Virus record (IMG/VR): IMGVR_UViG_3300007074_000097
Location: 1-25,827 of that record
Length of the DNA stretch: 25,827 bases
Reading direction: 5' to 3' (one strand)
DNA from: a virus
How positions within the stretch are numbered: position 1 is the stretch's first letter; every line of letters starts with the position of its first letter. Below, in pieces: positions 3,416 through 17,761 of this stretch. Under the pieces are notes generated by a model. The model was not told the DNA's origin. It worked only from the letters and a program-made list of their open reading frames with translations, and made no database searches. The position numbers were made by a program, and so were the translations under genes.

Positions 3416-4036
3416 ATGGCTAGAAAGATCATACTGCACTTATGCGCCGATGTCGGAAGTGACACAAAACCATATCAAGATCATCCTGATTACGAGGTTA
3501 TTTTAATAGGCAAGAATATAGGTGTTGAAAATTATCACCCGCCTGAAAATGTTTATGGAATAATAGCAAACCCTGTATGCACTGAGTTTTCTATTGCCCA
3601 AGGATTTCACTTAACAAAAGATTACGCAGCGGGAATGTTTTTAGTTGATCATTGTATACGGATAATAAAAGAAGCTAATCCTACGTTTTGGGCTATAGAA
3701 AACCCTGCAAGCGGTAAGTTAAAAGATTTTTTAGGTAATCCAAAATTCACTTATCAGCCGTGGCAGTACGGAAGCCCTTGGACAAAGAAAACAGCGTTAT
3801 GGGGTGATTTCAAAATACCATTACCTAAATACACCAAATGGGAACAAGTCCCTAAGAATGATAAATTATATATCAGACCAACACGTAAAAAACCATCACT
3901 TGCATTTATGCACAAATCAGCAATCAATTTAATTCCTGAATTTTTCTGCTTTAAAGGTAAAATACATGACGACATGGGCTTTAGGTCTTTATGTAGTCAA
4001 GGTTTTGCTAATGAATTTTTTAACGCTAACAGATAA
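3416..4036 (+). CDS. Minimal C5 cytosine methyltransferase-like protein
   Basis: A 206-residue protein resembling small phage Dcm-type proteins. Visible motifs in order: an N-terminal strand-loop LHLCADVGSD (residues 7-16), which would bind S-adenosylmethionine; the segment GIIANPVCTEFS (48-59), where C55 would be the catalytic cysteine of motif IV, with PVC in place of the usual PPC; WAIENP (92-97), the ENV/ENP motif VI, whose Glu protonates cytosine; and YQPWQYGSPWTKKTALWG (113-130), the conserved block of this subfamily. Full C5 methyltransferases exceed 300 residues and have a target-recognition domain, for which there is no room here. Target choice may be relaxed, or the reaction may differ. 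Methylation of phage DNA against host restriction is a reasonable guess. No cognate nuclease lies nearby. Confidence 0.75.
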   Translation: MARKIILHLCADVGSDTKPYQDHPDYEVILIGKNIGVENYHPPENVYGIIANPVCTEFSIAQGFHLTKDYAAGMFLVDHCIRIIKEANPTFWAIENPASGKLKDFLGNPKFTYQPWQYGSPWTKKTALWGDFKIPLPKYTKWEQVPKNDKLYIRPTRKKPSLAFMHKSAINLIPEFFCFKGKIHDDMGFRSLCSQGFANEFFNANR

Positions 4037-4656: not shown

Positions 4657-4827
4657 TTATTCATTTGATGCCTCAATGCTTTCATTTTGTGTAAGAATTT
4701 GCTCGGCAGTGCCTTTAGTAAGCCTGTCATCCTTAGATATGAATATAGGTTCACATAAGATGTTTACAGGGGGCTTGGCACACCCAGCGATAGCCAGACA
4801 TGATAATACTAACAGTCTCGACACCAT
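4657..4827 (-). CDS. Rz1-like outer-membrane lipoprotein spanin
   Basis: A 56-residue frame that begins inside the Rz-like gene and shares 19 bases with it in another frame. The N-terminus MVSRLLVLSCLAIAGC is a lipoprotein signal with lipobox I-A-G-C, so C16 should be lipidated and the protein anchored in the outer membrane. The mature part starts AKPPV, Pro-containing as usual in o-spanins. It contains one further Cys (residue 25) in NILCEP, then CEPIFISKDDRLTK, a segment I associate with phage Rz1-type proteins. It would bind the periplasmic domain of the inner-membrane partner and fuse the membranes as the last step of lysis. It is the last gene of the leftward block. Confidence 0.82.
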   Translation of the reverse strand: MVSRLLVLSCLAIAGCAKPPVNILCEPIFISKDDRLTKGTAEQILTQNESIEASNE

Positions 4828-5051
4828 TTTAGCTCCAACTCTTTTTGTATAGCCTCTTTAGGCATTCTCATTACTTTATACTTAATACGCGCTGTAGTTT
4901 TCTCTGCATCTATCCTACTTGCCGTTTCCTGCCCCACACGTGCGTCATAACCTTTTTTATACTGAATGTTACCATAGAAAAAAATAGCCCCTACAATAGC
5001 AAGTATAGCTAAAGCAGAGGCTATCAATCTAATGTGGGAGAGAGAGAACAT
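4809..5051 (-). CDS. Rz-like inner-membrane spanin
   Basis: An 80-residue protein with one N-terminal membrane segment (about residues 8-26, LIASALAILAIVGAIFFYG). The periplasmic part starts YKKGYDARVGQETA and continues with a charged helix. This is i-spanin topology, though shorter than lambda Rz (about 150 residues). Two cysteines near the C-terminus (WCRDC) could form disulfides between chains. The Rz1-like gene overlaps its 3' end in a different frame, a common spanin gene architecture. Its ATG overlaps the stop of the 40-residue membrane protein as TAATG. Confidence 0.8.
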   Translation of the reverse strand: MFSLSHIRLIASALAILAIVGAIFFYGNIQYKKGYDARVGQETASRIDAEKTTARIKYKVMRMPKEAIQKELELKWCRDC

Positions 5052-5181: not shown

Positions 5182-5544
5182 CTAAATTGTATGCGGTTTT
5201 ATGGCATCGTTTATTGTGGCACTATTGCCAGCACCTACTATACAGGCGATTAATTCAGCCTTACGCGGTGTAATTACTATGTCAGTATACGAGCCTTTTT
5301 GTGCGTTTACAAATATTTCTCGCATTGAGCGTCCTGTTTCATCTATACCTTGGAATAAAGAATGCTCACCATATTTTGTAGAGAGGTATTCAACCATTTT
5401 GCTATACATAAGGCAATTAGGCGGTAATCTTGGTTTCTGTATCGAGGGAGGTAACGGCTCTGGGGCTATGGGCGCACCTGATACTTTATCCTCTGCAAAT
5501 ACGCTTGTTGATAATAATGTTAGTCCAATGATTACCGTTTTCAT
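5182..5544 (-). CDS. Small secreted periplasmic protein in the lysis cassette
   Basis: A 120-residue protein with a clear cleavable signal peptide (MKTVIIGLTLLSTSVFA, then EDK). After a Pro-rich linker (APEPLPPSIQKPRLPPN) comes a compact domain. It contains NCLMYSKMVEYLSTKYGE, a GRSMREIFVN helix, a YTDIVITPR strand and ELIACIVGAG. C44 and C101 could form a disulfide in the periplasm. The YGE...E.(F/W)....G....V...C(I)...G pattern occurs in small secreted proteins of proteobacteria and their phages, without known function as far as I recall. It sits between the endolysin and the spanin genes, where a periplasmic regulator of lysis (as T4 RI is) would be plausible but unproven. Confidence 0.75.
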   Translation of the reverse strand: MKTVIIGLTLLSTSVFAEDKVSGAPIAPEPLPPSIQKPRLPPNCLMYSKMVEYLSTKYGEHSLFQGIDETGRSMREIFVNAQKGSYTDIVITPRKAELIACIVGAGNSATINDAIKPHTI

Positions 5545-5552
5545 GTTAGCTC

Positions 5553-6104
5553 CTATGCGTAGGTACGTTGATCTTCGTTCATTTCTACCATTAAGGCCAT
5601 AATAAATGCCTCAGTGCGTTTAGGCGTTTGACGCGCCCATTTGCTGTTTTTAACTGCTCTGATAACAGCTTTAAAATTACCGTTATTTAATTGCTTGTAG
5701 GTATTAGGCCATTTAGAAGGCCAGTTGTTACCAAGTTGGAAGTTTACACTAGTTAGAGCTAAAATGAAATCATATTCAAATTGCCCTATCTCTTGAGCCT
5801 GCGCCATCGCCGCTTTAATTGAACGTGATACATCGGATTTAAATAACAATTCAACACGTTCTTTTGATATTTTATTACCAACTCTAAGCTTGTCTTTAGG
5901 TAGTACAAGATGCCCTATACCTACGGTAGCCTTGCCAATAGAGTCTTTATATACGACCTGTCTGTAGCCTTCTTCTTTAACCATCTTCTTGCGTACATTC
6001 GTAAAGACCTTATCAAACATCTTCTGTTTCTGGGTCTTGGTTGCCACCACGATAGGTAGGCATTCTTTCTTAGGCTTATTCCAATTTCTAAGTGTTTTAA
6101 ACAT
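5553..6104 (-). CDS. Endolysin, GH24 lysozyme family
   Basis: The 183-residue product starts MFKTLRNWNK. The catalytic triad spacing is that of T4 lysozyme: in EEGYRQVVYKDSIGKATVGIGH the second Glu, the Asp nine residues later and the Thr six residues after that correspond to E11, D20 and T26, followed by the conserved GIGH. It would hydrolyse the MurNAc-GlcNAc bond of peptidoglycan. A basic stretch of about 35 residues precedes the domain; it is neither a signal peptide nor a SAR helix, so export should depend on a holin. I chose the ATG at 6104, preceded by AAGGAA, over in-frame ATG 6125 and TTG 6140. The start overlaps the stop of the two-TM gene by 8 bases. Confidence 0.88.
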   Translation of the reverse strand: MFKTLRNWNKPKKECLPIVVATKTQKQKMFDKVFTNVRKKMVKEEGYRQVVYKDSIGKATVGIGHLVLPKDKLRVGNKISKERVELLFKSDVSRSIKAAMAQAQEIGQFEYDFILALTSVNFQLGNNWPSKWPNTYKQLNNGNFKAVIRAVKNSKWARQTPKRTEAFIMALMVEMNEDQRTYA

Positions 6105-6330
6105 CTTTATCATTTCCTTTATCATTCCAAACTGCCCCAAATATATATGATCCTATCACAGCCGTAGATAAAGTAAAAGCACCGCCAACAATAGAAGCCC
6201 CAATTACCTCGCTATCATGCCCCTGCATGGTTATATAACCTATAACACCAGCACAGAAACTAAGTGTTATCACAACTAATCTGCGTCTGAATCCCCATGG
6301 TTTTTGTCCAGCGTTTCTACATTTAGTCAT
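6097..6330 (-). CDS. Two-TM membrane protein, holin candidate
   Basis: A 77-residue protein with a basic N-terminus (TKCRNAGQKPWGFRRRL), a first membrane helix (about residues 18-36, LVVITLSFCAGVIGYITM), a short polar turn (QGHDSE) and a second helix (about 43-66, IGASIVGGAFTLSTAVIGSYIFG). It ends in a charged tail. Size, two helices and position directly before the endolysin fit a class II holin. Related two-helix proteins with WG.RR and a GAYVFGA-like end occur in phages and are often left as hypothetical. It overlaps the PAS gene by 8 bases and the endolysin by 8 bases, so the three are likely translated together. Confidence 0.7.
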   Translation of the reverse strand: MTKCRNAGQKPWGFRRRLVVITLSFCAGVIGYITMQGHDSEVIGASIVGGAFTLSTAVIGSYIFGAVWNDKGNDKDV

Positions 6331-6883
6331 TTTTAAATAACCTTATGTTGAGAATGTCACTTAATGCGCCTACCACAACGGCGGACGCTATCGCTATCGG
6401 CTTCCAATACTTCATTAAGAAGTCCAGCACCCTCATTGTTAGTGACTGGGAGGATTGTTTCAATAAGGATGTTTCTTTCTTGTGCGCTGTCAGTAATGAA
6501 CCTTTGTTGTCTACCATGATCCTCGATACGAAGAACTCGAAGTCGCCCTGACCCGATAGAGGCGCTCGTGTTACTAATAATATTGCCTTTACTTTTCTTC
6601 CGTTTGAAAACTCGTATTTTTTTGGCAATAGATAGAAATCGACTAACCCAGATATGATTAAATTTGCGTTTTTTTCTTCCAGCTCCCTTATGTTTGGTGG
6701 CGTAATGTCTTGGAATTTTTTGCCAATCAAGTCCGCTGGCGTCACGCCTAGTAATTTGCAAAATTGAGGGTTGGCAGAACGAAAGGAAAAATCCTTGTTC
6801 ACTATAGCTATTCCCGAAAAGCTTGGGTCCCATATTGCTTTCCATGCTAGTACGCTTTCTTTATCATTAAGATTGTGTGGCAC
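6323..6883 (-). CDS. PAS-domain protein with C-terminal membrane anchor
   Basis: A 186-residue protein. Residues 18-125 have the PAS fold pattern: GIAIVNKDFSFRSANPQFCKLLGVTPADLIGKKFQDIT, then a helix, then beta-strands with KYEFSNGRKVKAILLVTRAPL and FEFFVSRIMVD. PAS domains sense small molecules, redox state or light through a bound cofactor; no cofactor residue can be assigned here. A linker (130-150) leads to one membrane helix (about 162-178, PIAIASAVVVGALSDIL) and a basic tail. No kinase, cyclase or HTH output domain is present. The ATG follows AAGGATAAA. Being first in the lysis cassette and overlapping the holin candidate, it may tune lysis timing; that is inference. Open frames at 6357-6845 minus and 6345-6551 plus are shadows. 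Confidence 0.8.
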   Translation of the reverse strand: MPHNLNDKESVLAWKAIWDPSFSGIAIVNKDFSFRSANPQFCKLLGVTPADLIGKKFQDITPPNIRELEEKNANLIISGLVDFYLLPKKYEFSNGRKVKAILLVTRAPLSGQGDFEFFVSRIMVDNKGSLLTAHKKETSLLKQSSQSLTMRVLDFLMKYWKPIAIASAVVVGALSDILNIRLFKND

Positions 6884-6938: not shown

Positions 6939-9311
6939 CTATAGAACCGTAATAGTCCCATAGTCACCGCCTGTGGTATTATCAGTAAATCCGCCTAGAT
7001 CATTAAATACACCGCCAGTTGCCTGACCCCGCGCCCAATATTCCCCATCAGCCGTACAATTTTTAGTCCACATCTTAGATGTTACTGTGCCTGTATAGCT
7101 TGAGGCAACTCCAATTTGGAAGCCTACCCTTGATTGTGCCGTCCCTGTATTTGAAGCCACACCAGTCGAACAATTAAGATTAACGGAGTATGCCCCTGAG
7201 GTATCCGCGAAGATTGGTGCTGTTGCTACACCATAACAGTTAAGCCTTAGTAAGTTTGCTTCGTTATGGGCCGTGAAAGAATTGTCATTAGTGGCTCCCG
7301 AATTACCACAACGCCTTGCAGAGCAGTTATCCTCTAAAACATTAGGCGTATAGCTTTGCGATGTTGTTGCGTGGTTAAATCCATCAGCGTTAACATGGTC
7401 ACTTGCATGGCAATTAATATAATAACTACTTTTAGTCCCAAGCGTACCAATCAAGTTGGTTGAAAAGTCACTATATCTAATACCACAATTCCTTGCACCC
7501 ATAATATTAGTATTTATTGCTGAGTGCTCGCATCTAACCGCCGCGCGTCCCCATAACTCTAATCCATCCCAGATAAATTTTTGATTAGTGCCATATACAA
7601 ACCACATAATACGTTGCTCGTTTAATACTTTCACGTCATTATCGTTTGGCTCTGACCCATCGCTTCTTTTAACTGATACGGAGCTACCATTCTCGTAAAA
7701 CGAGCCTGCATTAGCTGATACGTTTGCAATAGAAGTTTGCCTTAGCATGTTGATAGGCACTTCATCAATGCCGTTGGATAGGTATTCCCCTGTATGTGTA
7801 TTGCCTCTATCAACAACACACATAACACTGGCCGCAGTAGCCGTCCAAACTCCTGAATAGGTAGCATCTTCAACCCAAGTTAAACTACGGTATGACTGTG
7901 ATAAAATTACTGTCCCTGCGCCATCAACGGCCTCAAAACATACATCCTGACCATTTGGCGCTATATTATTCAACCCATCATCAAGGTCGTAAAACCCTGT
8001 GCTGATTTTAATTATATTAGCACCTACGTCATATGCTTTTTGAATTGATGCGTAGGCCGTTTCAAGTGTGTTACCGTTGGCGGTATTATCACCACCTTTT
8101 TTAACATACTTAATCGTGCCAGTTGGTTTTATAGTTTCAAAGTCAAAATCAGTGGTGAAGCTACCGTTTGCTTGCTCAAACAAAGTAAAGCTAGGTGTCC
8201 ATCTATCTCTGAATAAGCTAGGTAAATATTGTGTTCTTGGATAACTAACATCACCAGCTAATGCGCCTAGCCTATTTAAACTATCAGTATTGTAATGCAC
8301 CGTAGCAGGTGCTAGTGGGTCAGTCAGTGTCGCTGTTGTGCCGTTTGATGCTGTAATTCCTTCGCCAGCGGTATATTCTATTTGTGTTTCAGTCCATACT
8401 TTAGATTGGCCGTTATTGAAGAATGAAATTTTACCGCTTTCAGCGCTTGTATCTCCATCCAACGTAGTACCAATAGAAAAGTTTCCTGACCTTCCAGTAT
8501 AAGGCCATTCGTATTGTATGCCACTTTCAATATCAATTCCCAAATCACGCGAAGGGTCTATCATAAACGTGTTGCTTGGCAAGGTTAAATCATCACGCAT
8601 CGCCGTGCGAGTTTCAACCCATCTTGGATAGATAGAAATATTTTCAGGCGTAGCGCCAAGGTTAGGAATAATACATTTAGCATTAGGTATGTTTAAATCA
8701 CTACGTAGTAACGGTATGCCTAATTCATAACCAGACACAACCGCCGCCGCCGTACCTGCATGATCTACGGTAGCATCGCCACCAGCATCAGGGAGATAGA
8801 TTAAATCTATAGGTTCGCCAGTAGCATCCATTAACGTTTTGGCGCGGGTGATAACTTGACCATATCGTGTTGTCATGTCGAATGGGTCAGACGCATTACG
8901 TGATGTAAGCCATCCTGTGTTTGTGTTAATCGCAACTGGAATAGTTGATTTACAACCAGAAACAACGGCAATCTTTTTAGTGGGATTTAACGTACCTAAT
9001 TCAGTGATTAGGCTTTCAGTTATGCCGTAATACATATCCTCATTAATCAAGGTATAGGCGCTTGAACCTGTGTTATTAACAGGCGTTGCATAAACCATCA
9101 ATTCATTGGTAGCAGGATTTACTTTAAAGAACCGCTCACTATCAAACGTATTAATCTGATTGGTAAATATAGAACTATTATTATAAGCACTTGCCCCGAT
9201 ATTACTAGCGCCAAAAACAAGGACGTTTACGTATAATCTTGGGGCGCTTGGAATCGAACCCCCAGTTACCCCACCTGTTAATCCATTAGTTAATCCATTA
9301 GTTAAAGTCAT
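6939..9311 (-). CDS. Tailspike with SGNH-esterase-like and beta-helix regions
   Basis: A 790-residue virion protein. Residues 27-350 resemble an SGNH/sialate-O-acetylesterase domain: VLVFGASNIG (S36 as nucleophile candidate, like GQSN), VVSGCKSTIP (block II-like), YLPDAGGDAT (block III-like) and VHYNTDSLNRLG (H339 as block V His). A beta-rich stretch (about 265-335) is inserted before the last block. From about residue 398 (GTIKYVKKGGDNTANGN...AYASIQKAYDVGA) the sequence has the entry pattern of right-handed beta-helix tailspikes such as pectate-lyase-like depolymerases. The expected role is to bind and deacetylate or cleave host capsule or O-antigen. The N-terminus (LTNGLTNGLTGG) is repetitive and short, so it may attach through the upstream fibre. 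It begins 1 base after that gene. Confidence 0.8.
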   Translation of the reverse strand: MTLTNGLTNGLTGGVTGGSIPSAPRLYVNVLVFGASNIGASAYNNSSIFTNQINTFDSERFFKVNPATNELMVYATPVNNTGSSAYTLINEDMYYGITESLITELGTLNPTKKIAVVSGCKSTIPVAINTNTGWLTSRNASDPFDMTTRYGQVITRAKTLMDATGEPIDLIYLPDAGGDATVDHAGTAAAVVSGYELGIPLLRSDLNIPNAKCIIPNLGATPENISIYPRWVETRTAMRDDLTLPSNTFMIDPSRDLGIDIESGIQYEWPYTGRSGNFSIGTTLDGDTSAESGKISFFNNGQSKVWTETQIEYTAGEGITASNGTTATLTDPLAPATVHYNTDSLNRLGALAGDVSYPRTQYLPSLFRDRWTPSFTLFEQANGSFTTDFDFETIKPTGTIKYVKKGGDNTANGNTLETAYASIQKAYDVGANIIKISTGFYDLDDGLNNIAPNGQDVCFEAVDGAGTVILSQSYRSLTWVEDATYSGVWTATAASVMCVVDRGNTHTGEYLSNGIDEVPINMLRQTSIANVSANAGSFYENGSSVSVKRSDGSEPNDNDVKVLNEQRIMWFVYGTNQKFIWDGLELWGRAAVRCEHSAINTNIMGARNCGIRYSDFSTNLIGTLGTKSSYYINCHASDHVNADGFNHATTSQSYTPNVLEDNCSARRCGNSGATNDNSFTAHNEANLLRLNCYGVATAPIFADTSGAYSVNLNCSTGVASNTGTAQSRVGFQIGVASSYTGTVTSKMWTKNCTADGEYWARGQATGGVFNDLGGFTDNTTGGDYGTITVL
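9278..9305 (-). repeat. 12-bp direct repeat at the tailspike N-terminus
   Basis: On the plus strand TTAATCCATTAG occurs twice in tandem (9278-9289 and 9290-9301), followed by a partial TTAA. On the coding strand it specifies LTNGLTNGLT. It is probably slippage-derived, in the short linker before the esterase-like domain. Confidence 0.9.
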
Positions 9312-9312
9312 A

Positions 9313-10437
9313 CTACCACCCTGTTATTGGAATGCGTACAGAGAATCCTAATAACTGACCACTTGCGCCAACCACGTTGCCATCAGATACCACAAAGGCA
9401 GATGATGCCACACCACCCACGCCAAAATTCACAAAAGCATCACCACCAGTGGCCATTACGCCTAATGTGCTAGTTGTGTTAATATTATAGACGCCAGAAC
9501 CAACAAACATGACGCTTGGAACTTTGGTGCTATCTACTGTTAACCCTGTAGGTAATGTCATTTGTGCCTCCACCGCCGTGGGTGTTCCAACTTGAAATTT
9601 AAAATCAAGCTCAAGTGTATCACCAACCCTGCGCCATCTAGCAACAATATTGCTTGCCGTTCCAAACCCTGTGAAGGTTGGTGTATATATCTCCCAAGAG
9701 GTAATATATTGACGAAGAACATCAGCTTTAACCACCCTATTAACGGTGCTTGATACAATATGGGCGAGGGTTGCAAATACTCCACTATTAAACTTATCAA
9801 TTGAAATTTCGTTATTTAAAATCTTAGTCTGGGTAATTGCATTAGCGTCTATTTCTGAAGATCCTACAGTATCTAAAAAAGCTAACGCACCTAAACTATC
9901 ACCAGCAGAGTTTAATAACTCCCATCGGGTATTAGCTAAATTATAACGTAATACTAATTCATGACCAACACCCGCTATATCTCCTACTAGAAGAGCGCCA
10001 CCACCATCTTTAACGATAGTGCGCGCTGTTAGACCATTAGGCGAAAAACTTGGGGTTGTTGAGGTATTAGCACCTATTGCACGTATAAAGCATAACTGAC
10101 CGTCAACCAGAGCAGTTATCGGAATTGTATAATTAGCCGTAATAACGTTAACCGTTCCAGTGGCCACAACCCAGTTTGTAACGCCATCTTGTACCTGGTC
10201 ATATCGTGCATAATCTGTGCGATTAGTGGCTAGACCCACCCCTGTATGTTTATAAGTAGCCATGGGCAGTGTAGCGGTTACCGTTGTTTGCCCATCCTTT
10301 GTGATACAATTTGATAAGCCAGTAGCTATACCATTTTGCTCTGCGTCCATACGGTCTGCACGAATTTTAATACCGCCCGCCGCATCATTGACCCACGAAT
10401 AAATTCTCTGAAAAACGCCTGATCCATTAAATGGCAT
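9313..10437 (-). CDS. Tail fibre protein
   Basis: A 374-residue protein. The N-terminal segment FNGSGVFQRIYSWVNDAAGG.KIRADRMDAEQNGIATGLSNCI is the conserved tail-anchoring module found at the front of many phage fibres. It is followed by TKDGQTT and beta-rich, Thr/Gly/Val-rich sequence. A middle helix (SSEIDANAITQTKILNNEISIDKF) is typical of fibre shafts, and the C-terminal part (TFTGFGTASNIVARWRRVGDTLELDFKF...IPITGW) looks like a small beta-sandwich knob. It probably binds the receptor or carries the downstream tailspike. Its ATG overlaps the muramidase-ejection gene stop by one base. Confidence 0.82.
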   Translation of the reverse strand: MPFNGSGVFQRIYSWVNDAAGGIKIRADRMDAEQNGIATGLSNCITKDGQTTVTATLPMATYKHTGVGLATNRTDYARYDQVQDGVTNWVVATGTVNVITANYTIPITALVDGQLCFIRAIGANTSTTPSFSPNGLTARTIVKDGGGALLVGDIAGVGHELVLRYNLANTRWELLNSAGDSLGALAFLDTVGSSEIDANAITQTKILNNEISIDKFNSGVFATLAHIVSSTVNRVVKADVLRQYITSWEIYTPTFTGFGTASNIVARWRRVGDTLELDFKFQVGTPTAVEAQMTLPTGLTVDSTKVPSVMFVGSGVYNINTTSTLGVMATGGDAFVNFGVGGVASSAFVVSDGNVVGASGQLLGFSVRIPITGW

Positions 10438-12611
10438 TACCTTACTCCTACATTTTGATTAACTATATTCGTCATTGGGGGAGTTGAATTACTTTGTAAC
10501 CTCTTAGCTAAACCCTGCGCTTTTGTACTTTTAGCACCAGATTTTACGCCACCAGCTTCTAGGGCTTTTAGTAGCTTTTCAGCTTTACCACGCGCTAGAT
10601 ATTTCTGACCTGCCCTTGCCGCCGTTCCAACTAATGGTACAGCCAATGCAGGGGCTACAGAGGCACTGATTCCACCTACTGCCCCACCTGTTAACAAAGG
10701 GAGCGCAGTATTACCAGCAGAGCGACTTGAGCCAATATCGAAGCCAAACTTACCAGCCATTTTTAATATGCCCTCGCCAGTTGTCTGGTTACCTGCAAAT
10801 TTTAAAGCGTCTAACTCATCTTTAGACCAGCCTAATGTATTCTTTTTATTAGAGGCAAACCGCTCAATATCACGCTTCAGCTTGTTAGCATCACCACCAG
10901 CTTTACTAATTATATCTGATATAGCTTCAAACTTCTTAGACTGTGACCACTGTTTACGTGCCTTGGTAAGGCTTTCAATAGCGTCCAGGCTGTTTGATTG
11001 AATACTCTGAGGGGTTAACTGGTCAATAGAATCGTCTATAGCCCTGATAACACGACCCGCCATTTCAGCTTCCTGTGCTTTATTAGGGTTAGTAATGTCT
11101 TTTGCAATATTACCTAAAATCTGCCTATGAGCGTCAAGCGTCTCAAGTCCTATATTACCTACTGCCAAATCATCGTTTAACTGGTCAATAGCCTTTAATG
11201 TGCCTTTATATAGGTTTTTAGTAGCCTGTGTGTCAGAGTTTTTAACAATTCCTGATACAGCAGAAGAAATACCTTGTGAGGCACTTGGAGTTAGTACCGC
11301 ACCAGATTTATCAGATTTCTTATACAACCCTCTAGCAACGTCTTTCATTGAGCCTAATGTCTCGTCTAAAACTTCTGATGTCCTAGCACCTATACCTTTA
11401 GCAATGTTCTTACTGCCTTTGAAGCCAGCACCTAAAACAGCGCCTGCAACAGGGAGGGCAACGCTAGCACCAGCGCCCACCCCAAGACCTTTTTTGAACT
11501 CTTGCCCCATTTCCCCTTTATCTGCCTCGCCTGCGAAGTATGCCCCTGTAGCTGGAGCGGCCACAAGCGCACGTCCCATCGCCCTTGTTCCAAGATTTCC
11601 CGCTTTTGCGAGCTTACCTGCGCCTTGGAAAGGGCTATATGAACCCACTTTTCCTGCGAGCTGTGTTGCATAATTTGCACCTTTTCCTGTATTAGCTAAG
11701 GCATTTGAACCTTGCGGGGCTTTACTAAACGCCGCTGGCAAAGTTGTACCAACACCCATTAAATTACCTGCTAAAGTTGCCTTTGGGTTAGCTTCTTGAG
11801 TAGCTTTTGTATCCGCTAATGATTGATTGTAATAATCTTTAAACCCTAAATCAGCCTTACCACCCATTGCGTCAAAAGCCGTAGCAATACCTGCGCCAAT
11901 ACCAGACGTAATTTTGTTACCAAACGGAATCTGTCCACCTGATATACCAATACCTGCCGCCGCTAATGCGCCCATGTCATTACCTTGTGAAGCTTTCTCC
12001 TGTGGCGCTTGTGGCTGTGGCTGATATGTAGTGCGTAACTTGTCTTTTAGGGCAGTTAATTGCTCTGGTGTTTCGCTACCAGTTAAAGAGATAGAGCGCC
12101 CATCAGGTAATTTAATTCTACGGCCTATTGTATCTTGCCCTTGTCCACCACGCATACGGCCTATTGTATCTTGCCCTTGTCCACCACGCATACTGTCTAT
12201 TCTATTCTTCCAGCCATTTTGGAATTCAGCCTGTGAAGGGTCGTTTCGCACTACCTGCTTTACAAAAGTCTGCCTGTTGTCAAGAAATTCATTAGGGGTA
12301 GACGACTGGCTCAGAAGCTCCTTAGCTTTACCAATACCACTATTTACAGCCGTATCTGCATAAGCCATACGCATATCATCAGGGACTTGTTCAGCATTGG
12401 ACTTATCCCAAAACTCACGCTTGTAGAAATCACGTAAATAAGGCTCTGTGTCTTGACCTTGGGAGTGCATCTGCTTTAGCTTTTGTACGTCCTGAGCGAA
12501 GTATCTAGACGATACACCAGCGAAAGTCTCGCCACCACGGTCGTTAGGATTATTCGCATAACCACCCTCAACTTTTAAAACCTTATCAAAGAATTGGTTA
12601 AAATCAGTCAT
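10437..12611 (-). CDS. Internal virion/ejection protein with N-terminal GH108 muramidase domain
   Basis: A 724-residue protein. Residues 6-35 (FFDKVLKVEGGYANNPNDRGGETFAGVS) match the N-terminus of GH108 N-acetylmuramidases, with E15 of EGGY as catalytic acid. Residues 58-100 (YLRDFYKREFWDKS...ADTAVNSG) match the peptidoglycan-binding part of the same family. After a linker with a 12-residue duplication (141-152 and 153-164) and a small IKLPDGRSISLTG segment, about 500 residues of Ala/Gly/Lys-rich helical sequence follow. These include several hydrophobic stretches (for example VALPVAGAVLGAGF and ASVAPALAVPLVGTAA) that could insert into a membrane. This layout fits a virion protein ejected with the DNA that opens a hole in peptidoglycan, comparable in logic to T7 gp16. 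Confidence 0.82.
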   Translation of the reverse strand: MTDFNQFFDKVLKVEGGYANNPNDRGGETFAGVSSRYFAQDVQKLKQMHSQGQDTEPYLRDFYKREFWDKSNAEQVPDDMRMAYADTAVNSGIGKAKELLSQSSTPNEFLDNRQTFVKQVVRNDPSQAEFQNGWKNRIDSMRGGQGQDTIGRMRGGQGQDTIGRRIKLPDGRSISLTGSETPEQLTALKDKLRTTYQPQPQAPQEKASQGNDMGALAAAGIGISGGQIPFGNKITSGIGAGIATAFDAMGGKADLGFKDYYNQSLADTKATQEANPKATLAGNLMGVGTTLPAAFSKAPQGSNALANTGKGANYATQLAGKVGSYSPFQGAGKLAKAGNLGTRAMGRALVAAPATGAYFAGEADKGEMGQEFKKGLGVGAGASVALPVAGAVLGAGFKGSKNIAKGIGARTSEVLDETLGSMKDVARGLYKKSDKSGAVLTPSASQGISSAVSGIVKNSDTQATKNLYKGTLKAIDQLNDDLAVGNIGLETLDAHRQILGNIAKDITNPNKAQEAEMAGRVIRAIDDSIDQLTPQSIQSNSLDAIESLTKARKQWSQSKKFEAISDIISKAGGDANKLKRDIERFASNKKNTLGWSKDELDALKFAGNQTTGEGILKMAGKFGFDIGSSRSAGNTALPLLTGGAVGGISASVAPALAVPLVGTAARAGQKYLARGKAEKLLKALEAGGVKSGAKSTKAQGLAKRLQSNSTPPMTNIVNQNVGVR
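12121..12192 (-). repeat. Perfect 36-bp tandem duplication inside the ejection muramidase gene
   Basis: Bases 12121-12156 and 12157-12192 are identical. In frame they encode the same 12 residues, MRGGQGQDTIGR, twice in the linker between the muramidase domain and the long C-terminal part. Zero divergence suggests a recent duplication, or a misassembly. Confidence 0.97.
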
Positions 12612-13708
12612 TACAACCCTTCATTTAAGAAGTCGTCTAAAGATAAATCACCGCTTTGTTGGGGCGTTTGGCCAGTACGAAGCTGCATACTTTCAATTAT
12701 AGAGCGTTTATTGGCGATAAATGACCGTAAAACAGCCTTTTTCTCTTCAGGGGAAGCATTTGGATCACCTAAAGTGCCTTTTAGCTCTTCACCCTCTTTA
12801 ACTGTAAACGCCGCACCAAATGTCTGTTTTAACAGAGGTAGAATGACGTTACTAACTTTTGACATATACTCTTTTCTAGCAATACCATCTTTCCCAACAC
12901 TCATACCTAACTGTCTTTGAATCGCATCTTCAGCACGACCAGCTAACCCATAAGTTGCGGTCTGACTTAACGTTTCAAGATCTTGTACAACATTTTCAAG
13001 ATTAGGTAGGGATGCTTCCATATCAGCTAGTAAGCTAACAGCGTCACCTTGCGCAGTACCTACTTTATTAGCCGCACTAGTGGCCTCTGCTATACTTGGC
13101 TTGTAGGCTAAATCACTCTGATTTTTACCCGACTGTGTCTCAAAGTTTGCTTGACGGCCTTGCTCTATTTCAGCGCCTAAGCGCCCACTTGCACCCGCGC
13201 CACCTTTTAGAGCCATAAGCGCGTCCTGAAGCGTTTCAATCCCATTACCCTCTTCAGCTACTAATCTGTTCAATAACACACCTGTATCACCGCCCATGTC
13301 CTCACCACCATACTGTGATTTAAGACGCGCTTTTTCACCGCTCATCTTTAAATCCATAGCCATTTGAGGGTCTATCTGCATTAACTGAGCCATTTGAGGG
13401 TCAACTTGTTCACCGTTAGGCTGGCCACCAAGGATAAATTCTTGAATAGCTTTGTCCCTAGTCGCTTTTTGCTCAGCCTGTGCCGTATCAGCCTTAGCGC
13501 CATAATACGCACCCATACCGCCTTGTATGCCCTTAGCAAGCTGTTCTACGCCAGACTTCTTGACTAAATGCCCACCAATCATCTGGTGTGGCGTTTGCTT
13601 ACCAGCGTTAGTCATTTGCTCTGACATGCGTCTTAATCGTGCAACGTCATTCTTGCCTTTAACTTGAGGTTTTTCACCCTGCATAATTGCGTTATAATAT
13701 TTAGCCAC
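12611..13708 (-). CDS. Ejection/internal virion protein candidate (365 aa, GTG start)
   Basis: A 365-residue protein, hydrophilic and largely helical, rich in Gln, Ala, Gly and Met. A region with HLVKKSGVEQLAKGIQGGMGAYYGAKAD near the N-terminus is followed by helical DPQMAQLMQIDPQMAMDLK repeats. The C-terminal half contains LLKQTFGAAFTVKEGEELKGTLGDPNASPEEK, a segment I associate with podovirus DNA-ejection proteins. I chose the GTG at 13708 because GGAGGT lies 8 bases upstream and it overlaps the previous stop by 8 bases; extending to 13759 would add a hydrophobic stretch read from the other gene's coding region. It lies between two other virion proteins and probably forms part of the ejection apparatus. 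Confidence 0.72.
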   Translation of the reverse strand: MAKYYNAIMQGEKPQVKGKNDVARLRRMSEQMTNAGKQTPHQMIGGHLVKKSGVEQLAKGIQGGMGAYYGAKADTAQAEQKATRDKAIQEFILGGQPNGEQVDPQMAQLMQIDPQMAMDLKMSGEKARLKSQYGGEDMGGDTGVLLNRLVAEEGNGIETLQDALMALKGGAGASGRLGAEIEQGRQANFETQSGKNQSDLAYKPSIAEATSAANKVGTAQGDAVSLLADMEASLPNLENVVQDLETLSQTATYGLAGRAEDAIQRQLGMSVGKDGIARKEYMSKVSNVILPLLKQTFGAAFTVKEGEELKGTLGDPNASPEEKKAVLRSFIANKRSIIESMQLRTGQTPQQSGDLSLDDFLNEGL

Positions 13709-14885
13709 CGCCAACACCTCCAAATAAACTACCACCAATAGCCGCACCCGCTGGCCCACCTAAGAAGCCACCACCAATTGAGCCAGCTAGCCCTAAAGCA
13801 GACCCTAAAGCGTTACTTTGGCTAGCCTGATTTGAATTATACGCGCCTAATTGAGCCTGATAGTTACTATTCACTGCACCAGCATAATCAGGACTTTGCG
13901 CACCTGCATAATTATATTGTGAGAATTGAGGGTTTGTTAACTGTTGCTGTCCTGACATAGCTAGGTATTCATTTAATGGCTGTTGTCTAGTTTTATCCAG
14001 CTCACTAATGCCTTGCTGTCTTAAAGCCATAGATTGTTGTAAAGCTCTATCAGACTCAGCACCACCAGCTAATACAGCTTGCATACGCGCATCGTTTTTA
14101 GTCTCGCCAAAGCGTTCCATTTCACGGTTATAAGCTTCACTGTTTTGGCCAATACCCTGATTGATTAAGCGCGTTCTCATAGCTTCCTCATCACGGTCAA
14201 ATTGAGGGTTTAAACGGCTGTAAATAGCATCTTCAGTGGCTTTACGTGCAGCGTCTAAATCATCCTGCCCATAAACAGATTGAATATTATCATAGTTATA
14301 AGGGGTAGAATAAGCACTTTGCACTTGATTTAACGCATCCTCAGATAGCCCACCGATTTGCTCTTGCTGGCGCATCTGGCTGTCAAAGATACCCTGCATT
14401 TCAGGGGATAACTCAGTGGTAGATGTCCATTGTGGTGTTACACCCGCATTAGTTTGGAAGCTTTGTAAGTCTGGTGGGGCAATAGGTGATCCACTTACAT
14501 TACCTTGTGAATCCTGCCTACGGACAGTATTAGAAGGTCGTATACCGTAACCACCAATTACATAGTCATTCGATGGCTGTTGATATGCAGAGACACTAGA
14601 GGTATAGGCATCCATTGCCTTGTTATAAGCGTCATAATCATACTCTGGTGTTCCTTGGGTTAATTCAAAGGTCTGTGAGCCATAAGGAGTGAATTGGTTG
14701 ACGTTATTTAATGAGCTGTTCCATAGGGCGGTTTCTTTGTCATACTGAGATTGTGCCGCCGCTGTTTCATTAGGGTCTGGTGCTTCAGGTGCACTAGTAC
14801 CACCACCTTTAAAAAGGCGTTCATCATGTAGGTACTGCGCAGCAGGGTTAGCATCAGTTAGCGATTTAAGAAATTTTATAACCAT
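13701..14885 (-). CDS. Virion structural/DNA-ejection candidate (394 aa)
   Basis: A 394-residue protein, Gln/Asn/Ser/Tyr-rich. It contains GGGTSAPEAPDPNETAAAQ near the start, then DKETALWNSSLNNVNQFTPYG and a central helical region with repeated QQ-rich segments. A Gly/Ala-rich hydrophobic end (GSALGLAGSIGGGFLGGPAGAAIGG) could insert in a membrane. The 'APxxPDPxxTAxAQ' start is common in podovirus proteins encoded between the tail and ejection genes. I chose ATG 14885, which has AAAGGA upstream, over the TTG two codons earlier. It overlaps the GNAT gene by 10 bases and the next gene by 8. Confidence 0.72.
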   Translation of the reverse strand: MVIKFLKSLTDANPAAQYLHDERLFKGGGTSAPEAPDPNETAAAQSQYDKETALWNSSLNNVNQFTPYGSQTFELTQGTPEYDYDAYNKAMDAYTSSVSAYQQPSNDYVIGGYGIRPSNTVRRQDSQGNVSGSPIAPPDLQSFQTNAGVTPQWTSTTELSPEMQGIFDSQMRQQEQIGGLSEDALNQVQSAYSTPYNYDNIQSVYGQDDLDAARKATEDAIYSRLNPQFDRDEEAMRTRLINQGIGQNSEAYNREMERFGETKNDARMQAVLAGGAESDRALQQSMALRQQGISELDKTRQQPLNEYLAMSGQQQLTNPQFSQYNYAGAQSPDYAGAVNSNYQAQLGAYNSNQASQSNALGSALGLAGSIGGGFLGGPAGAAIGGSLFGGVGGG

Positions 14886-15298
14886 TTGCAATCATCCTTT
14901 AGCATGCCGAATGACAGAGAGTCATTACCAGTAGGAAAAGCTTGTTTATGCTTACCTTCTTCTTTAAACCCTAATCTTTTATTGAACATTACAGCGCCTT
15001 CATTGTCAGAGTCACATTGCGTCTCAACTCTTCTCAAACCTAGTTGAGTGAAGGGGTATCCGAATAACGCCCTTAGATTATGCCTTGTAGCCCATCTTTT
15101 GTCAATACTAGCTACTGTCATTTCTAAAGTGAAAGGAATTGATTTGTGTTTTCTTTGATTATTGTAAATAACACCAGCGATAATCTGGCCATCTGCAACT
15201 ATGCCAATAGCTTCGCAGGGGTCAAAATAATCATGTGCTTCACCAAATTTATCCGCTGCCCATGCCGCTATTTCTTCACTTGCGCCATACAGGATCAA
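14876..15298 (-). CDS. GNAT-family N-acetyltransferase
   Basis: A 140-residue protein with the size and order of a GNAT domain: N-terminal helix, beta-strand AIGIVADGQIIAGVIYNN, strand SIPFTLEMTVASIDKRW, helix NLRALFGYPFTQLGLRRV, then ETQCDSDNEGAVMFNKRLGFKEEGKHK. The last part is the typical N..A..FY..LGF motif B. The acetyl-CoA pyrophosphate loop (Q/RxxGxG/A) is degenerate (RWATRHN). Its substrate is unknown. It lies inside the tail-gene run, overlapping the nozzle gene as ATGA, so it is likely made late and may modify a virion protein or a host target. Acetyltransferases in this position occur in other podoviruses as I recall. Confidence 0.8.
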   Translation of the reverse strand: MILYGASEEIAAWAADKFGEAHDYFDPCEAIGIVADGQIIAGVIYNNQRKHKSIPFTLEMTVASIDKRWATRHNLRALFGYPFTQLGLRRVETQCDSDNEGAVMFNKRLGFKEEGKHKQAFPTGNDSLSFGMLKDDCKWL

Positions 15299-16848
15299 AG
15301 GATACCGCCTACCTCATAGACAAAATCTGTTGATTGCCAGTTACATCCGATACCATTGGCAGATACTTTCATACGGATACCCGCTGAATAGCCTAGCCCA
15401 TTGATACTGCGCCAATTACGTACGATAGCATCTCCACCACCCCAGCTTGAAGTGTCCCATGGGGCTACGTTCCATAATGAATCATCTGAGCTTATATATT
15501 GCGGGGTACTCGTAGCGGCTTCATTCTTAAAGTCTGTGTTCATCTTAATAGCTGGGGTTATTTCCCCCTCTGTGGAGAATATAGGACGTGCCATTAAAAA
15601 CCGTTTCTGCCTACCTTTAGTGCCAAAGTATGAAAAGGCTTGCTGGCAGTCTGCTACAATATCACTGCCGTTATCATTTTGACCAGTATCAGCCCTATAA
15701 ACAGTGCCGTTACCACCAAAATATAGATTATCTTCCAGTATTTCATAACAAAATGAATTCCACCCTGTAAATTTAGTCCATGCCCCTGTGATTAAATTCA
15801 TTACATACTGGTGTGAGATACTATCTTCCATACTAGGCACGTTTATTATCATTTTATTACCAATAGGATGGATGATAGGTTGCCAGCCATATGCTGATTT
15901 ATAGGATCTAGCGTCCTCTAAGAATAGCTGTGAGATTTTATCTGTAACGGCGCTATTAGATTGCCCTCTATCCGTAAGCAGAGACTTAGATAATGGTAAA
16001 GCTCCATCTTCAGTTAAGACAAGCACGTCAGCGCCACCTTTAATGGCACATTTCTTGCCTATAGGCTTGCCTATTCTAAACGTACCTACCAACGCCCATG
16101 TGTTAGCACTGGAGGGGTCAGTGCCTTTGTATAGGGCAACCTCACCCTCGCTTGTGATAAACGCCGCATAATCATCTATTCCTGCCGCATTATCAATAGT
16201 CCAGTTAGCCATTGTAACCAGTGTGCCCCCAAGCTTAAATAACCCTGACAGGTCTATCTTACTCGCCGCGCCACCAATAGATGAGACAGGCAGATACCAA
16301 GCATTTAACGTGTCTTTTTCAATCAACCAGATACGCTGTTTAAAGATATTAATGTTATCAATGTCCGCTGTATTCACGCCTGTGATTGCTGGGCTTGATC
16401 CTGCGTTAATTGCACTCCACGCTGTACCATCGTAATACTGTAAATCATCTTGGCCGTTCACCATCATTAGGAAGAAACCGCCCGCTGTACCAAAATTAAC
16501 ATATTGAAATTTAGAGTTTGCAAGCCCTGTGACTACCCCTGCGCCTACTGCGCCCGATGCGGTAATATCAAATATACTGCCCCCAGCTACGCCAAATAGC
16601 TCCTGTGATACACCATCGTTATAGTAGACCACTGTATGAACATTAGCGCCTAATCCTGTGGCATGTTCTGCATAGCCATTACGGACGTTAACACTCGTAG
16701 TTTCAGGAAAATAATTCTCCATAAACACAGCATCAGAGTCTTTCATACTCGCTAAGTTATCACGCGCATTTAAACCACCAATAGGGGCTGGTATTGAAGT
16801 TGTGCTTGCAACCTGTTTTTTAGGTACTTGATTGGTCTTAATTGCCAT
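15295..16848 (-). CDS. Tail nozzle/stabilisation-type protein (beta-propeller)
   Basis: A 517-residue beta-rich protein. The N-terminal segment SIPAPIGGLNARDNLASMKDSDAVFMENYFPETTSVNVRNGYAEHA is the hallmark of podovirus tail proteins of the P22 gp10 (stabilisation) or tubular-B type. Repeated blades follow, with FGVAGGSIFDI, FFLMMVNGQDDLQYYDG, YYLP-like and LYFGGNGTVYRAD segments suggesting a beta-propeller that closes the tail tube. I chose ATG 16848 over the GTG at 16860; neither has a strong ribosome binding site, and the overlap with the adaptor gene suggests coupled translation. Confidence 0.8.
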   Translation of the reverse strand: MAIKTNQVPKKQVASTTSIPAPIGGLNARDNLASMKDSDAVFMENYFPETTSVNVRNGYAEHATGLGANVHTVVYYNDGVSQELFGVAGGSIFDITASGAVGAGVVTGLANSKFQYVNFGTAGGFFLMMVNGQDDLQYYDGTAWSAINAGSSPAITGVNTADIDNINIFKQRIWLIEKDTLNAWYLPVSSIGGAASKIDLSGLFKLGGTLVTMANWTIDNAAGIDDYAAFITSEGEVALYKGTDPSSANTWALVGTFRIGKPIGKKCAIKGGADVLVLTEDGALPLSKSLLTDRGQSNSAVTDKISQLFLEDARSYKSAYGWQPIIHPIGNKMIINVPSMEDSISHQYVMNLITGAWTKFTGWNSFCYEILEDNLYFGGNGTVYRADTGQNDNGSDIVADCQQAFSYFGTKGRQKRFLMARPIFSTEGEITPAIKMNTDFKNEAATSTPQYISSDDSLWNVAPWDTSSWGGGDAIVRNWRSINGLGYSAGIRMKVSANGIGCNWQSTDFVYEVGGIL

Positions 16849-17761
16849 AACCTGTATCACTAACGTTATCTGAGTTAATCAACCTTGTATTTGTTGAGCG
16901 TGAATTTAAAGATAATACTCTTGAGCCACCATCACGAGACATAACACGCTGGCAATCATCCTGATAATCTTTATATTCTTGCATATAATCCATGCCTTTA
17001 GAGCGTAAGAAACGCCATTTTAACCCTAGGATAAAACAGTCATCATCCAGCCTGTAAGTATCAGTATCAGCGTTCCACTGGTCTGAATAAATACCACCTT
17101 CACTAGCTGACCAGTTCTTGGTATAAAAATCATAAGCGATAGTCTGACCACTCTCTGTAGGCATAGGCTCTAAGCATAGGCGGTTATTCTTAATGTAGAA
17201 TTTACGCCTTACGCCACTTGTGCCTATACCATATCTTAACACCTGCTTTTCTTGTGCTGTAATCCCACCGACTAATTCCCATTTAAAGGCATTATCGAAG
17301 AATGTACGGCTAATAAAATATGAAAATCCACCTGGCATAGGATAGGCAAATTGACCAAATATCATTGTGGTGGTTGACCCTGTGGCGGTAGCGGGGCGGT
17401 CTAACGTAACCTGTGTGGCATTATCAACACTCATAACCCTAGCCTGATAAGGCAGGCCGTTTCCTGACACCATGAAAGTACCCGCACTAATAGCGGAGGT
17501 GTCAGGAATATTGGTTATAATGTTAGAGCCTTCAGTTGTATCCCCTGTGGTGGTGGTTACGAAAGTCTGGAAGTTATGCTCTTCGTGTAAATCCTGCCAC
17601 CCACCTTTATTAGAGGACATTTCAGCAAACTGCTTACCTTCTCTATTAGCTAGAGAAATCATTAATCTTGCATCATCATCCACTGAGCCAAATACTTGCG
17701 AGGGCTGTGGTAAGCTTAATTCATTAGAGGCAAATTGAATTAACTCAAGGAAGCTTGACAT
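16838..17761 (-). CDS. Head-tail adaptor/connector protein
   Basis: A 307-residue protein. The start, FLELIQFASNELSLPQPSQVF followed by DDDARLMISLANREGKQFAEM and GGWQDLHEEHNF, is the pattern of podovirus adaptor proteins (P22 gp4 or tubular-A type) that form the ring under the portal. The middle carries an Ig-like, Thr-rich insertion (FVTTTTGDTTEGSNIITNIPD...RPATATGST). The C-terminal half, with GIGTSGVRRKFYIKNNRLCLEPMPTESGQTIAYDFYTKNW and DDCFILGLKWRFLRSKG, is conserved in that group. It lies directly upstream of the nozzle gene, as expected for building the tail in order. Confidence 0.78.
   Translation of the reverse strand: MSSFLELIQFASNELSLPQPSQVFGSVDDDARLMISLANREGKQFAEMSSNKGGWQDLHEEHNFQTFVTTTTGDTTEGSNIITNIPDTSAISAGTFMVSGNGLPYQARVMSVDNATQVTLDRPATATGSTTTMIFGQFAYPMPGGFSYFISRTFFDNAFKWELVGGITAQEKQVLRYGIGTSGVRRKFYIKNNRLCLEPMPTESGQTIAYDFYTKNWSASEGGIYSDQWNADTDTYRLDDDCFILGLKWRFLRSKGMDYMQEYKDYQDDCQRVMSRDGGSRVLSLNSRSTNTRLINSDNVSDTGYGN

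Follow-up and report, generated by a model that had tools for sequence, protein, structure and literature searches.

Can a phage lysis cassette be headed by a sensor protein, and what would such a protein do there? The question is raised by a virus record of 25.8 kb (the window, meaning the whole stretch of 25,827 nucleotides analysed), in which the late genes are on the minus strand. The original prediction proposed that a small protein made of a PAS domain and one membrane helix is encoded at the head of the lysis genes and could act as a sensory antiholin or holin partner. The gene, its product (PAS-TM) and the other genes of the cassette are the following:

6323..6883, minus strand: PAS-TM gene, 186-aa PAS domain protein with a C-terminal membrane anchor (Pfam, AlphaFold2, Foldseek, conservation)
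6509..6817, minus strand: PAS core, residues 23-125 (Pfam, AlphaFold2, Foldseek)
6455..6499, minus strand: J-alpha-like linker helix after the PAS core, residues 129-143 (AlphaFold2 secondary structure)
6344..6400, minus strand: hydrophobic core of the C-terminal membrane helix, residues 162-180 (Kyte-Doolittle scan; model helix 148-181)
6097..6330, minus strand: two-TM holin-like protein, 77 aa (PHROG 14936, E=1.6e-15; PHROG 198, holin, E=3.6e-4)
5553..6140, minus strand: lysozyme (GH24) endolysin (Pfam Phage_lysozyme, E=5e-12; PHROG 7, endolysin, E=1.5e-14)
5182..5544, minus strand: 120-aa small protein with an apparent signal peptide, between endolysin and spanin (ORF list; PHROG 25396, of unknown function, E=1.3e-5)
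4809..5051, minus strand: Rz-like inner-membrane spanin (PHROG 1026, E=2.6e-5)
4657..4827, minus strand: Rz1-like outer-membrane spanin lipoprotein with the lipobox IAGC (PHROG 1275, E=1.3e-8; lipobox scan)

The PAS-TM ORF starts with a GTG codon (window positions 6881-6883), with AAGGA 6 nt upstream. In Pfam, its product matched PAS_4 (E=1.5e-7, 32.1 bits for a cut-off of 23.1) and PAS_9 (E=5.3e-7, 30.3 bits for a cut-off of 27), and all its matches were to PAS families and a sensor-domain family. An AlphaFold2 model built from a 60-row alignment of relatives had a mean pLDDT of 81, with block means of 83-96 over about residues 11-140 and values of about 90 in the core; the single-sequence model reached a pLDDT of 44.5 only. 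The model has the PAS topology, a five-stranded antiparallel sheet (strands 24-29, 33-37, 83-91, 97-108 and 115-124) with flanking helices, and continues beyond the core with helices 129-143 and 148-181. A Foldseek search with this model gave, at E<=0.001, 648 matches in the PDB, of which the 50 listed are PAS or LOV domains; TMt values for PDB PAS chains were about 0.8. The protein was also considered as a LOV photosensor, a candidate that was dropped, the flavin-adduct motif GxNCRFLQ being absent by eye.

Residues 162-180 have a mean Kyte-Doolittle value of 1.83 and are therefore taken as one membrane helix; the model is weak at this segment (pLDDT 44-48). Gly, Ala and Ser make up 37% of this anchor, which is followed by a 6-residue tail, RLFKND. 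The protein ends after the helix, and neither an output nor an enzymatic nor a kinase domain follows the PAS domain (no kinase family match in Pfam). The window protein had no PHROG match at E<=1, hence no holin-family match, did not match the Pfam profile of the releasins (DUF2730), and showed no similarity to structural-protein families in Pfam or PHROG. In conclusion, profile searches and structure prediction confirm that the gene product is a true PAS domain with one C-terminal membrane helix, in agreement with the predicted PAS domain (residues 18-125), single C-terminal helix (about 162-178) and lack of an enzymatic output domain.

The predicted position of the gene at the head of the lysis cassette also holds: the start codon of the holin-like gene lies inside the end of the PAS-TM gene, the overlap being exactly 8 nt, and the holin-like ORF (6097-6330) overlaps the lysozyme ORF (5553-6140). 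Relatives of the 77-aa two-TM protein are annotated as holins in phages AXL_1 and ZQG1. By eye, the translated lysozyme contains no membrane helix and is thus of the soluble type. On the opposite strand, beyond the cassette, a DNA methyltransferase-like gene is present (3416-4036, plus strand; PHROG 757, E=5e-24). Upstream of PAS-TM, a 790-aa tail protein (6939-9311, minus strand) matches hydrolase PHROG 16653 over residues 385-753 (E=4e-24), and its N-terminal part has, by eye, the look of an SGNH/GDSL-type hydrolase. Three further late proteins (10437-12611, 12611-13759 and 15295-16860, minus strand) match the endolysin- or amidase-annotated phrog_315, phrog_26675 and phrog_5107; they are probably virion-associated or structural.

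Relatives of PAS-TM were sought in IMG/VR with profiles of the PAS domains A1, A2, A3 and A7. These scans, which use short conserved motifs and therefore undercount, recovered L096, L097 (=L098), L099, L100, L102 (=L101), L103 and L199. The viral relatives are 168-200 aa long (L100 being read from a likely GTG start) and consist of a PAS domain and a C-terminal hydrophobic segment, weak in L102. The anchors of the window protein, L096, L097 and L103 contain 37-47% Gly/Ala/Ser; those of L099 and L102 are poor in small residues. Six of the eight PAS-TM genes (window, L096, L097, L099, L100, L199) apparently start with GTG or TTG, perhaps for low expression. The only other protein recovered from IMG/VR was L095, one long host-type sensor, and the best 80 bacterial or archaeal loci of the profile scan all lie in proteins of 413-1949 aa. 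A free-standing small PAS protein devoid of an anchor was found on a Deinococcus plasmid.

PAS-TM belongs to the same PAS subfamily as bacterial sensors such as the StyS kinase, diguanylate cyclases and PAS S-box proteins, with which it shares F-Q-D-I-T-x-P and N-x-x-x-C motifs; identity with the closest bacterial PAS stretches is about 24-39%. Nearly all of these sensors are long multidomain proteins with output domains, whereas PAS-TM is one PAS domain with one anchor. Viral proteins with a PAS domain are known from the histidine kinase of Agrobacterium phage Atu_ph07 and others (BFVD matches), but these are long kinases.

Other searches recovered no further relative. The single-protein scan and the endolysin scan of IMG/VR yielded nothing, and tblastn with the window, L100 and L103 PAS proteins found nothing at E<=1 in INPHARED phages. 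PAS (PF13426) was absent from 50 portal- or holin-related viral records, most of which are fragments perhaps devoid of the lysis region. No close copy was found in 369 genomes of one bacterial class, in a search run without a positive control. A near-identical contig (L004/G003, 99.96%) covers only a part of the window beyond the lysis genes, and a relative with a 65% identical portal (G004) ends before them. The window protein is 63% identical to that of contig G051 (L096) and 44% identical to that of G053 (L098). No other protein is shared between the window and these two contigs (BLASTP, 1e-4), and the gene therefore moves alone between phages.

The neighbourhoods of the relatives were compared. 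In G051, PAS-TM is joined by a TGATG junction to a lysozyme bearing an N-terminal SAR-type helix, followed by Rz with a lipoprotein embedded in a second frame. In G430 (L199), the order is a four-TM gene, PAS-TM, a SAR-type lysozyme and an Rz-like gene; L096 and L199 are the only members with a SAR-type lysozyme downstream. In G052/G053 (L097=L098), PAS-TM is followed by a receiver-like gene, a signal-peptide two-TM protein, a small protein and an amidase, and in G055 (L100) by a DUF5675 gene, a TM gene and an Rz-like gene. The L099 gene lies between TM/Rz-like genes, which no family model recognizes, and terminase. The two remaining members are not lysis-adjacent: the spanin-like pair of L103 is about 3 kb downstream, and the roughly 4 kb flanking L102 on each side show no lysis gene. 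The upstream multi-TM genes of L199 and L097 have no detectable homology to each other. The survey of relatives thus answers the question left by the original prediction: PAS-TM recurs with lysis genes in unrelated phages, though the lysis genes differ.

In L097, 2 nt separate PAS-TM from the receiver-like gene (6507-6869, plus strand), which encodes a 120-aa stand-alone protein with a Pfam Response_reg match below cut-off (E=0.011). Its best PDB matches are CheY (E=0.08-0.2), and by eye an acidic pair, a phospho-acceptor-like Asp, a Thr/Ser and a Lys stand at the expected places; a search of the contigs for receiver families returned no match at E<=0.01.

With one TM segment, small size and a place next to the endolysin, PAS-TM of L096 and L199 has the features by which holins are recognized. 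The endolysin gene directly follows PAS-TM in L096 and L199; in the window, the holin-like gene intervenes. The 50-kb G051 contig carries terminase-, portal- and capsid-like genes, and on its late strand no TM gene was found at the cassette besides PAS-TM, the SAR-type lysozyme and Rz, which leaves PAS-TM as the one candidate found there for a holin or releasin; the other small TM ORFs of the contig are scattered and mostly spurious-looking. This contig has no terminal repeat and is perhaps incomplete, so a holin may be encoded at a distance.

If each gene is assumed to have a 14% chance of lysis adjacency, adjacency in four of the seven lineages has p of about 0.009, and in five of the seven p of about 0.001, the lineages having been counted after being seen. 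In a comparison of the window, L096 and L199 genes, the PAS part shows purifying selection, with pN of 0.12-0.17 and pS of 0.72-0.75, and the linker-anchor part is less constrained, with pN of about 0.32-0.34; these ratios are rough because synonymous sites are near saturation. The PAS part is therefore functional, and purifying selection together with the conservation of the whole architecture in relatives from unrelated contigs indicates that PAS-TM is not a chance ORF.

A Foldseek search of viral models with PAS-TM also returned proteins of two cultured Cellulophaga phages, phi18:3 (172 aa) and phi19:1 (240 aa), assigned by protein length to gp090 and gp108. These two proteins are homologous, and gp090 is also homologous to genes of Ingeline and phi38:2-type phages. 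They form an unannotated family in which an N-terminal TM segment is combined with a PAS-like part. Its genes lie beside endolysins in cultured Cellulophaga phages of four lineages, at the following loci:

L200:38612-41452: phi18:3
L204:2952-5208: phi38:2
L203: Ingeline
L202/L205: phi19:1 and Nekkels

Each protein has one N-terminal membrane segment, and its gene has lysis genes in the vicinity. In phi38:2, gp11 overlaps the endolysin (peptidase) gene gp12; in phi18:3, gp090 precedes the endolysin by two genes; in phi19:1, a multi-TM gene and a lysozyme lie downstream of gp108; and in Ingeline, gp36 is near a spanin-like gene and, by eye, a DUF5675-like gene. A unimolecular spanin has been reported in Ingeline (PMC8776804). 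The partner multi-TM family (gp091/gp111, 34% identity) is likewise unannotated. DUF5675 is thus found by a PAS gene and a spanin in two unrelated phages (L100:6509-6955, by Pfam; L203:3689-4120, Ingeline gp38, by eye only), and its product is possibly an alternative muralytic or lysis enzyme. The likeness of gp090, gp11, gp36 and gp108 to PAS-TM lies in small size, one membrane segment, a PAS-like fold and a place beside endolysin or spanin genes; unlike PAS-TM, they have their membrane segment at the N-terminus and their PAS part probably outside the cytoplasm, and they are annotated as hypothetical. Pfam recognized nothing in them and they gave no sequence-profile match to the PAS-TM domains (hhalign probability about 0), so that they can be called PAS-like only at the level of the predicted fold, from Foldseek for gp090 and gp108.

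The recurrence of PAS-TM among lysis genes suggests that some phages may time lysis with a sensor. We consider it somewhat probable (about 0.55) that PAS-TM is a tail-anchored lysis-control protein whose cytosolic PAS domain acts on the neighbouring lysis effector. The protein would consist of a cytosolic PAS domain, a helical linker and one C-terminal membrane helix that leaves hardly any residues beyond the membrane, the N-in orientation being deduced from the lack of a signal sequence and the C-terminal anchor. It would be made from the late operon just before the membrane-disrupting and muralytic genes, probably with translational coupling, and its PAS domain would most likely be a dimerizing or ligand-gated switch that sets when the neighbouring effector fires. 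In the window phage, which has a separate two-TM holin, the controlled step would be holin triggering; in relatives with no obvious holin it would be membrane release of the SAR endolysin, and in some phages PAS-TM may be the effector rather than the regulator. Three steps are inferred: PAS-TM would touch the holin or the SAR endolysin, it would sense a cue, and it would either delay or trigger firing. Because the family is paired with SAR-type lysozymes, a soluble lysozyme and an amidase, PAS-TM is likelier to be a trigger or brake that acts generally at the membrane than a partner specific for lysozyme. Of the earlier proposal of a sensory lysis partner, the PAS fold and the lysis neighbourhood stand; the antiholin role is not the whole account, given the lack of a separate holin in the G051 late region, unless a holin is encoded elsewhere or was missed.

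By analogy, the simplest reading of PAS-TM is a PAS version of the control exerted by Mu gp25 or T4 RIII. Mu gp25 is a membrane-tethered cytoplasmic protein required for SAR-endolysin release (PMC9239132). Like PAS-TM, this DUF2730 releasin has practically no periplasmic part and has its gene close to that of the endolysin; phages with cytoplasmic endolysins also carry members of its family (PMC9239132). It differs by an N-terminal TM segment, N-out/C-in topology, a short acidic domain with no PAS fold described, and a gene located downstream of the endolysin. The T4 antiholins RI and RIII are, as proposed for PAS-TM, small accessory proteins of holin timing, and RIII binds the cytoplasmic part of holin T (PMC11413866). 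In T4, RI is periplasmic and RIII cytoplasmic, neither is described as a PAS protein in PMC11413866, and lysis inhibition answers superinfection.

Association with lysis genes is not function, and several observations count against lysis control: the positions of L102 and L103, the TM and Rz-like neighbours of L099 that match no family model, the lack of a profile match between the Cellulophaga proteins and PAS-TM, and the portal- and holin-related records searched, mostly fragments, in which no PAS gene was found. Cargo genes commonly occupy the slot that separates tail fibres from lysis genes, and the ends of late operons often carry them as well. PAS-TM could thus be a cargo gene with another job in a variable slot by the lysis genes. 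It might, for example, interfere with host signalling by forming dimers with the PAS kinases of the host, or serve superinfection exclusion. Its movement independently of the rest of the genome and the two distant members away from lysis genes would fit; we nevertheless hold this unlikely, as PAS-TM keeps the same position though the lysis genes beside it are different and unrelated, its junctions with them overlap or abut, and in G430 it sits between the four-TM gene and the endolysin. Much less probable still is a membrane protein that is a minor component of the virion or associated with the tail, its gene following those of the tail fibres. In the window, PAS-TM does directly follow a tail-fibre or spike gene, but it has a cytosolic signalling fold with no structural-family similarity, and contigs whose tail genes are different still have it in the lysis position. 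The phi18:3 and phi19:1 records mark virion proteins detected by MS/MS, and the PAS-like genes are not marked, evidence that is weak because these genes are fold-level analogues only.

Alternatively, the membrane effector could be PAS-TM, acting as a one-TM holin, a pinholin or a Mu-like releasin, with its oligomerization set by the cytosolic PAS dimer; in the window it would have been joined, or be in the course of replacement, by a canonical holin. The phages in which PAS-TM directly precedes a SAR-type lysozyme and Rz (G051, G430), the G051 cassette with its lack of another late-strand TM gene, the several Gly/Ala/Ser-rich anchors and the precedent of Mu gp25, which releases a SAR endolysin without a holin (PMC9239132), all speak for it. 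Against it, a good two-TM holin candidate is present in the window together with a lysozyme of the soluble type, possible holins are encoded in G430 (the four-TM gene just upstream) and L097 (the TM gene downstream), the C-terminal part is less conserved, and not all anchors are rich in small residues (L099, L102). On balance, this reading appears doubtful, and control of a neighbouring effector is preferred.

A bolder form of lysis control, which we put forward tentatively, is that these proteins are mobile, phage-specific, PAS-gated lysis triggers: the cytosolic PAS domain would read the redox, energy or metabolite state and directly decide the firing of the holin or SAR endolysin, in one lineage by way of the phage-encoded receiver-like partner (L097 6507-6869). 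The open-access papers searched contained neither a description of a PAS-based lysis module nor a link between PAS and phage lysis cassettes.

In the usual description, holin timing is a clock internal to the phage that runs on holin concentration, and outside signals are known mainly from superinfection (T4 RI). A sensor domain recurring in the lysis cassettes of phages that are unrelated makes it testable how lysis is adapted to host physiology; the TM plus PAS-like genes beside endolysins in Cellulophaga phages, fold-level analogues, would offer a route to real infections in cultured phages. PAS-TM would extend the accessory lysis regulators, and the case would be stronger if sensing were established. 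If the PAS-gated trigger were true, it would be, to our knowledge, the first known lysis clock built on a dedicated physiological sensor domain.
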